Below, in pieces: positions 25,204 to 26,698 of a stretch of 64,000 nt of DNA (position 1 is the stretch's first letter; each line of letters starts with the position of its first letter). Under the pieces are notes generated by a model. It did no database searches, was not told the origin of the DNA, and was given only the letters and a program-made list of their open reading frames with translations. Position numbers and translations under genes: made by a program. The stretch is from Nitrosospira multiformis (lineage in GTDB: Bacteria; Pseudomonadota; Gammaproteobacteria; Burkholderiales; Nitrosomonadaceae): contig NZ_QAOK01000017.1 in assembly GCF_003050865.1 (NCBI RefSeq), forward strand, positions 1-64,000. Reading direction: 5' to 3'.

Positions 25204-26379
25204 TTACAGGACGACCACCTCTGGCAAAGGAAAGCCGTTGAAGTTGCTGGCGTAGGCTGTCGTATAAGCGCCGGCATTGGGGATATAAATGAAATCGCCT
25301 TCCTCAATATCCTCCGGCAGCATTTCATCCCGCATCAGGATATCGACCGAATCGCAGGTTGGCCCCGCTACAGACCAGGGGATGTTCGATCCCGTGCGAT
25401 CGGAAAGAATTTCATACCGCAAGCCCTCCGTGACCTCGATTACGCCGCCAAAGACGCCTGCATCCCAATACATCCAGCGTTTACCGTTGCGGGTTGCCGT
25501 CCCTACTACGCGGCAGACAAAATAGGCTGCATCCGAGACGAGGTAGCGCCCGGGCTCAGCCATGATGCGAATGTTCTCCGGCAGGTTAGCAATCGCTTCG
25601 TTCACGACTTCACCGATAATTTCTATCGATGGAATGGGCTTCACATGCCGCACCGGGTAGCCGCCGCCGATATTGAGCAAACGCGGTGACAATCCCGCCT
25701 GGCGCATGTCGGCGAATACCTTGATTGCGCGTTCGATGCCGACTCGCCAGTTCTGCGGATTGCGGCATTGCGAACCGACGTGAAAGGTGACTCCGGCCAG
25801 ATCAGCCTTAAGGTGGGCCGCTTCGTCAATGATTTCCTTGATCTCGGCTATATGCGTGCCGAACTTGCCGGCGAGCGGCCAGTCACTCCCGATGTTGGGC
25901 GTATCTATCCGCAAATACAGTTTCGCGTCCGGCTTCACGCTGACGATCTTGCGCAACTCCTCGACACTATCCAGCACATACCACTCCACGCCTTTGGCTG
26001 CGGCGTATTCCAGGTACGCGCGCGACTTCATCGGATTACTGTAATAAATATCCGCAGGAGGCACATCCAGGCTGAGCAGGAGGTCAAGCTCTGAAATGGA
26101 GGCAATTTCAAATCCAACGCCTTCCTCGATCAGCGTTTTCAACACGCGCGGATCAGGATTGGCCTTGACCGCATAGTGCGGCTGCACACGCGGCATGGCG
26201 GCTTTGAATCTTCGGGCTTTGTTGCGGATGATATTACTGTCAACCAGCAGAAACGGCTTGCTGTAGCCCTTTTTGAGGGCTGCCTGAACATGTTCAAAAT
26301 CCAGGCTGACTTCGGGGTGGGTGTCGAATATTTCTTCTGCTTCTACGGTTTGCCGTAGAGCGGTATTGCGCATTTGCAT
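25204..26379 (-). CDS. Type III PLP-dependent ornithine decarboxylase
   Basis: Decarboxylates ornithine (possibly also lysine) to putrescine. The 391-aa protein is of the eukaryote-like alanine-racemase fold: HYAVKANPDPRVL carries the PLP lysine, FHVGSQCRNP and LNIGGGYPV bind the cofactor, AEPGRYLV follows, and AGPTCDSVD holds the catalytic cysteine. The start at 26379 has a good AAGGA site. A strongly initiated 21-codon ORF lies 23 bp upstream and may regulate it. Ornithine versus lysine preference cannot be fixed from sequence alone. Confidence 0.93.
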   Translation of the reverse strand: MQMRNTALRQTVEAEEIFDTHPEVSLDFEHVQAALKKGYSKPFLLVDSNIIRNKARRFKAAMPRVQPHYAVKANPDPRVLKTLIEEGVGFEIASISELDLLLSLDVPPADIYYSNPMKSRAYLEYAAAKGVEWYVLDSVEELRKIVSVKPDAKLYLRIDTPNIGSDWPLAGKFGTHIAEIKEIIDEAAHLKADLAGVTFHVGSQCRNPQNWRVGIERAIKVFADMRQAGLSPRLLNIGGGYPVRHVKPIPSIEIIGEVVNEAIANLPENIRIMAEPGRYLVSDAAYFVCRVVGTATRNGKRWMYWDAGVFGGVIEVTEGLRYEILSDRTGSNIPWSVAGPTCDSVDILMRDEMLPEDIEEGDFIYIPNAGAYTTAYASNFNGFPLPEVVVL

Positions 26380-26402
26380 GATCGTCCTTCCTTTTGGAGG
26401 CG

Positions 26403-26468
26403 CTACGTTACGGGAGTATGGATGTTTACCAGATCAGCCGTGATGAAGTGGTTTGCTTTGCTTGTCAT
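26403..26468 (-). CDS. Candidate 21-aa leader peptide upstream of ornithine decarboxylase
   Basis: A very short ORF whose ATG at 26468 is preceded by a perfect AGGAGG six bases away, one of the strongest ribosome-binding sites in the window. It encodes MTSKANHFITADLVNIHTPV plus a final threonine and ends TAG, 23 bp before the decarboxylase start. The gap includes GCCTCC, which could pair with the leader's own AGGAGG. No known family is recognised. It may be a regulatory leader peptide or a small protein; the role is inference from position and initiation signal. Confidence 0.55.
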   Translation of the reverse strand: MTSKANHFITADLVNIHTPVT

Positions 26469-26698
26469 GATGACCTCCTGTCCTTCAGTTTGATATCGTA
26501 AAAAAATGCGGATTATAGACTTGATTGCGCTGGAATCAAGTGTTTTTTTGAATGAGGAAAAGACCCCTTGCTCAGCCCAAAGTTCCGCCCCCGGAACATG
26601 ACAATGCTCATCAATATTCAGGTGTTCAGTCCCGCTGCCCGAAACTTGCGCAGGTAAGCAAGGTGAGCAATTTTCGCAAAGAGAAGAACGTATGACGT

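Follow-up and report, generated by a model that had tools for sequence, protein, structure and literature searches.

A conserved 21-codon leader ORF ending in Pro-x-Thr-TAG precedes a PLP decarboxylase gene in Nitrosomonadaceae and may couple its translation to putrescine by slowing termination

Comparative sequence analysis confirms a 21-codon ORF lying directly upstream of a PLP-dependent decarboxylase gene of Nitrosospira as a real, conserved leader peptide tied to that gene. The coding sequence is under selection, its ending, stop codon and distance to the gene are conserved across the Nitrosomonadaceae, and in a motif search of the order the leader lies exclusively in front of such decarboxylases. 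At about even chances, we propose that the nascent leader peptide acts in cis to slow RF1-mediated release at its UAG stop codon, such that the ribosome-binding site of the decarboxylase would be covered by the waiting ribosome; feedback by putrescine is the most likely role. The locus lies in a 64,000-nt stretch of DNA (the window), with the following features.

26534-26539, minus strand: probable -35 element TTGATT, a consensus match read from the sequence, 16 nt before the -10 element
26512-26517, minus strand: -10 element TATAAT, read from the sequence; no other promoter-like site was noticed in the interval from the upstream DNA to the leader
26474-26479, minus strand: leader ribosome-binding site AGGAGG, read from the sequence
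26403-26468, minus strand: leader ORF, 21 codons plus TAG, peptide MTSKANHFITADLVNIHTPVT; ATG at 26468, TAG at 26405-26403
26403-26417, minus strand: conserved leader end; Thr/Ile 26417-26415, Pro 26414-26412, Val 26411-26409, Thr 26408-26406, TAG 26405-26403
26380-26402, minus strand: gap of 23 nt between leader stop and decarboxylase start, read from the sequence
26396-26401, minus strand: GCCTCC within the gap, not conserved
26386-26392, minus strand: decarboxylase ribosome-binding site AGGAAGG, read from the sequence; roughly where the front of a ribosome halted at the leader stop would lie
25204-26379, minus strand: decarboxylase, fold-III PLP enzyme of 391 aa plus stop, Pfam PF02784 and PF00278; ATG at 26379

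The sequence-only reading had described an AGGAGG-led ORF of 21 codons, which is present, and a spacer of six bases to the ATG, which is in fact 5 nt long (TCATC); the 23-nt distance and the GCCTCC (26401-26396) that it placed in the gap are both seen. An AGGAGG followed by ATG 4-9 nt on occurs three times on the two strands of the window, opening ORFs of 1, 21 and 364 codons, and GGAGGTCATCATG has a single mismatch-free occurrence in the 3.29-Mb genome. Pfam gave no match for the 21-residue peptide. Among the 83 distinct upstream regions defined below, TATAAT lies 5′ of the leader in 82 and AGGAGGTCATCATG is exact at the leader ribosome-binding site in 72.

The decarboxylase was sought in 125 Nitrosomonadaceae genomes (124 with some match) and in a contig collection (80 of 107 relatives kept). 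This gave 110 loci, of which L099, having no upstream region, was left out. In all 109 loci assessed, near-copies included, the decarboxylase is preceded by an ATG-initiated ORF of 21 codons that ends in Pro-x-Thr (Pro-Val/Glu-Thr-stop). These loci, drawn from two overlapping collections, represent 85 distinct regions, and 83 are Nitrosomonadaceae or close to them by title or sequence; the 83 carry 71 distinct ORFs encoding 55 distinct peptides. Leader length is exactly 21 codons throughout the family, Pro19 and Thr21 are invariant in all 71 ORFs, His17 is kept in 70, and codon 20 is split between Glu (36) and Val (35). One Nitrosomonadaceae genome carries, besides its intact gene, three nearby partial decarboxylase-like pieces, one with an internal TAG (G010:C1:1842420-1847030).

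From the first to the third codon position, mean entropy rises from 0.53 through 0.74 to 1.12 bits. The pN/pS ratio is 0.37 in the leader frame vs 1.12 and 0.98 in the shifted frames, and none of 300 column permutations, run on a 30-sequence subset, reaches a value as low as observed. Purifying selection thus acts in the leader frame alone. Absence of the ORF or its start codon from relatives, or no excess of third-position changes, had been named beforehand as grounds for abandoning the leader; the relatives keep both ORF and ATG, and third positions are the most variable. The constraint is concentrated in the C-terminal half (pN/pS of 0.21 over codons 12-21 vs 0.52 over codons 2-11), so that peptide-level selection is strongest near the stop, as expected of termination-arrest leader peptides. 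The coding signal could also arise if the leader end constitutively slowed termination at UAG, setting a low level of decarboxylase and sensing nothing. Feedback regulation at committed steps is common, and the retention of His17 together with the pN/pS over codons 12-21 is more than the last two residues would need; we therefore consider a constitutive attenuator unlikely. It draws on the same sequence evidence as putrescine feedback and on the general influence of the penultimate and final residues on peptide release (PMC8429421).

The leader stop is TAG in 82 of the 83 distinct regions, the exception being TAA in L108. As a control matched for relatedness, the decarboxylase genes at 76 of these loci end with TAA in 43, TAG in 18 and TGA in 15; TAG also ends 52 of 284 other long open frames at those loci (at least 150 aa, shadows included) and 10 of 58 frames of at least 200 aa in the window. 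All these stop counts are non-independent owing to relatedness on the tree. UAG is decoded by RF1 alone. Such a single stop identity argues for an event at termination in cis, because a released peptide would need no fixed stop. It is thus highly improbable that the peptide works in trans after its release, for instance as an antizyme-like inhibitor of the enzyme: a conserved peptide does adjoin its would-be target, but stop identity is kept while the N-terminus is variable and the length falls to 13 residues in one relative (L138).

The leader end also shows a strong preference for ACG-TAG-C (26403-26408 in the window, and in relatives), in which ACG is the rarest Thr codon of the decarboxylase genes. 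The base after TAG is C in 72/83 regions, the terminal Thr codon is ACG in 66/71 ORFs vs 234/1248 in decarboxylase genes, and the Pro codon is CCG in 0/71 vs 703/1959. With such biased Thr and Pro codons, some of the constraint at the leader end may act at the nucleotide level, on RNA or tRNA, rather than on the peptide.

After correction of gene starts, the gap between leader stop and gene is 19-26 nt in 82 of the 83 regions (22 nt in 36) and 30 nt in one. These gaps put the leader in each of the three possible frames with respect to the gene (21, 46 and 16 of 83), and fusion into the decarboxylase by readthrough or frameshifting was rejected on this ground. The 3′ end of the decarboxylase SD lies 13-19 nt past the leader stop in 81/83, a figure based on uncorrected starts for 12 loci. 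A bacterial ribosome with the last sense codon in its P site covers the mRNA to ∼16 nt past the first base of that codon. For a ribosome at the leader stop this limit falls at about 26392, where the decarboxylase SD AGGAAGG begins; by this geometry, a ribosome waiting at the stop and 30S loading at the gene should be mutually exclusive. The median SD duplex energy is -12.3 kcal/mol for the leader and -7.4 kcal/mol for the decarboxylase, with the leader SD the stronger in 81/83 (97.6%). Translational coupling might account for these last values, with ribosomes loaded on the leader re-initiating at the decarboxylase and the peptide itself irrelevant. The strong leader SD and the short, constant gap would suit this explanation, as would two loci (L164/L243) in which the leader extends to an ATGA overlap with the gene, but selection acts on both the peptide and TAG, which makes coupling alone very unlikely.

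The AGGAGG of the leader and the GCCTCC of the gap had been proposed to pair, such that leader translation would alter RNA structure around the decarboxylase start. Both words are present in the window, and modelled pairing of the leader SD with the gap exceeds 0.5 in 12/83 regions. Against this, GCCTCC occurs in only 16/83 gaps, no complement of at least 4 nt to the leader SD stretch exists in 33/83, and the modelled pairing averages 0.17, with a value of 0.0003 for the window. Folding of the window segment is slightly weaker than that of its shuffles (z of +1.09; 177/200 shuffles at least as good), the mean z over the 83 regions is +1.06 against mononucleotide shuffles with none below -2, and RNAalifold returned an empty consensus structure for the 83 regions. 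Rfam 15 gave two tRNAs alone at gathering scores over the window and no known family, the speF element included; in 26330-26580, down to an E-value of 5, the sole hit was SNORD37 (E of 4.3, plus strand). By these predictions the switch is largely refuted, and we regard it as extremely improbable.

In the order, 60 of 300 genomes have a decarboxylase relative at 1e-60 or better, 51 of them outside the family. The upstream region was read in 48 of these 51; together with L110, L112, L203 and L204 this amounts to 52 loci, with G174 and G294 (39-40% identical) and G153 (cut off by the contig) left out. An intact leader is present in 26 of the 52, including L134, which was counted by hand since its split decarboxylase led the script to score none (script count 25). 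Where decarboxylase identity is at least 66%, the leader is intact in 26/35 loci and absent or broken in 9/35; below 66% it is intact in 0/17 assessable loci. The absence of a leader at L265 was discounted as its decarboxylase begins at a contig end. The leaders outside Nitrosomonadaceae are spread over nine further family codes of the order and measure 13-24 residues. They keep the Pro-x-Thr ending (among others HIPVT, HTPVT, QIPVT, DIPVT, HIPLT, DLPET, LVPET and LIPET), and all 26 stop with TAG; the unbiased count is 24/24, as L203 and L204 were found with a pattern that demands TAG. An intact leader also precedes the decarboxylase at L134/L190 (G244), where the gene was matched in two pieces that overlap and are shifted by >200 nt, which may reflect a frameshift, an insertion or an assembly error.

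GGTCATCATGA is retained in six loci that have no intact leader (L136, L137, L239, L243, L245 and L246), two of which are cut to seven codons and one of which has no stop before an ATGA overlap. The two short forms (L136 and L137, family code f22) keep the start and end ∼75 nt before the gene (MTRTRNY and MTRARNY), and in their sister L139 the leader is lost. In L164/L243 the leader stop is lost, with HLSVT followed by sense codons up to a TGA that overlaps the decarboxylase ATG, which suggests a shift from stop-and-gap to direct coupling. With the leader absent or broken in some relatives, certain lineages can evidently do without it. In a tree built from 81 decarboxylase rows (17 of the 83 family rows used; L134 and L265 left out), the leader label requires 5 changes, where at least 3 are forced; shuffled labels average 27.4 and 0/500 are as low. 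Resolution is poor at the base of the clade, and the long-branch L142, from outside the order, is placed inside it. Such a tree is fitting for one origin of the leader followed by several losses.

Among 399 genomes of the order, 24 carry a single match to the pattern GGAGGTCATCATG-N27-57-CC-N4-ACNTAG, and in 24/24 the match is directly followed by this decarboxylase on the same strand; the reversed-pattern control had no match among the matches listed. The pattern misses known variants, finding 9 of 13 family genomes searched. Outside the order, 0/45 upstream regions (17 class-search loci and 28 of 72 matching genomes outside the family) have a short ORF ending in Pro-x-Thr, at decarboxylases that are 31-45% identical and of which some may be paralogues.

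The closest solved relative of the decarboxylase is the lysine/ornithine decarboxylase 2plj (E of 6.7e-66), and the protein is 96-98% identical to that in records named Nitrosospira multiformis. It is probably an ornithine decarboxylase by sequence; no NCBIfam model scored over its cut-off, and the substrate is therefore probable rather than proven. The genome gave no match to AdoMet decarboxylase (PF02675), two weak spermidine-synthase-like matches and one fold-I decarboxylase. From this gene content, putrescine is likelier than spermidine as both end product and ligand. A second PLP decarboxylase gene of this genome (PF01276, L268) was scanned as well, and the stretch covered holds no short ORF with a Pro-x-Thr end.

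Taken together, the conserved C-terminus, single stop, free N-terminus, lack of a fold and constant short gap point to a termination event that is sensed in cis and in which the ribosome forms the block. We infer that the leader is translated in the cell, with its strong ribosome-binding site loading the ribosomes. The C-terminal residues, in most cases [His/Gln/Asp]-[Ile/Thr/Leu]-Pro-[Val/Glu/Leu]-Thr, would then slow RF1-dependent release at the obligatory UAG, and more so when a ligand, likeliest the pathway product putrescine, is abundant. Held at UAG, the ribosome would extend to the 5′ end of the decarboxylase ribosome-binding site, blocking loading there, such that less decarboxylase is made, whereas scarcity of the ligand would permit quick release and translation of the decarboxylase. 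The repressive direction of this effect is deduced from geometry alone. A narrower version, to which we give somewhat less than even chances, is that the leader would constitute a third, distinct bacterial leader-peptide sensor for putrescine synthesis. RF1 would be blocked at the obligatory UAG following Pro-x-Thr by putrescine or 2-hydroxyputrescine located in the exit tunnel, and repression would come from the ribosome itself.

No description of a leader before this decarboxylase was found in the open-access literature searched, with subscription papers mostly outside the search. Like SpeFL (orf34), the leader is a conserved short ORF ahead of an ornithine decarboxylase gene. The published account of SpeFL gives 34 codons and an Arg12-Arg13 pair and puts the beginning of speF at mRNA position 516, from which a gap of ∼380 nt is computed (PMC6386406). 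In contrast, the leader has 21 codons in 109/109 family loci and 13-24 in other families, its stop is TAG, codons 12-13 are mainly Asp/Leu with no Arg listed in the 71 distinct ORFs, and a gap of 19-30 nt (83/83; typically ∼22 nt, with no conserved fold) replaces the long structured region. The earlier view that the leader is unlike SpeFL is thus borne out, insofar as its published length, Arg pair and distance to the gene all differ. The two SpeFL papers disagree on the release factor: in Salmonella the stop is given as UGA, with regulation by Rho termination and long alternative folds (PMC6386406), whereas elsewhere SpeFL is described as a nascent-chain inhibitor of release by RF1 (PMC8429421). 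As SpeFL, which also precedes an ornithine decarboxylase gene, senses ornithine and blocks release by RF1 (PMC8429421), stalling on the present leader might likewise raise decarboxylase synthesis. We consider such ornithine sensing quite unlikely, because the stalled ribosome would abut the decarboxylase SD, the ∼22-nt gap is too short for a speF-type terminator, Rho site or alternative fold (PMC6386406), and no conserved fold was found.

The alphaproteobacterial odc1 element (uORF-25-1) shares with the leader a conserved short uORF of fixed length before a gene called ornithine decarboxylase; as described, it encodes 11 residues from a UUG lying two nt ahead of the main UUG, and its RBS is within a conserved hairpin with a pseudoknot (PMC8632094). 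The present leader differs in its 21 residues, its ATG start, a gene start 19-30 nt past its stop and the empty RNAalifold structure over the 83 regions, where a hairpin would sequester the RBS. This sets odc1 apart by geometry alone, its peptide sequence being outside the comparison. An in-frame test did not recover the alphaproteobacterial UUGnnUUG arrangement in the 45 regions from outside the order. Short bacterial leader peptides at whose stop a small ligand blocks the release factors are described for TnaC and MsrDL (PMC8429421, PMC10314930). TnaC differs in using UGA and RF2 where the leader here has TAG, and MsrDL in regulating an intrinsic terminator; no attenuator fits the gap of the present leader. 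The logic proposed for putrescine feedback is that of the MAGDIS uORF of mammalian AdoMetDC mRNA, where polyamine-dependent stalling at the stop lowers synthesis of the downstream enzyme (PMC4505036), although that uORF differs in eukaryotic scanning, six residues, another enzyme and an unrelated sequence.

If the proposed feedback holds, the leader would be a bacterial polyamine sensor with direct occlusion of the ribosome-binding site and a bacterial counterpart of the MAGDIS uORF, in which an easily synthesised peptide of 13-24 residues, as short as 13 in the extreme, carries a metabolite signal via UAG-specific termination. For annotation, it follows that a gene overlooked by its size precedes the decarboxylase in many ammonia oxidisers.
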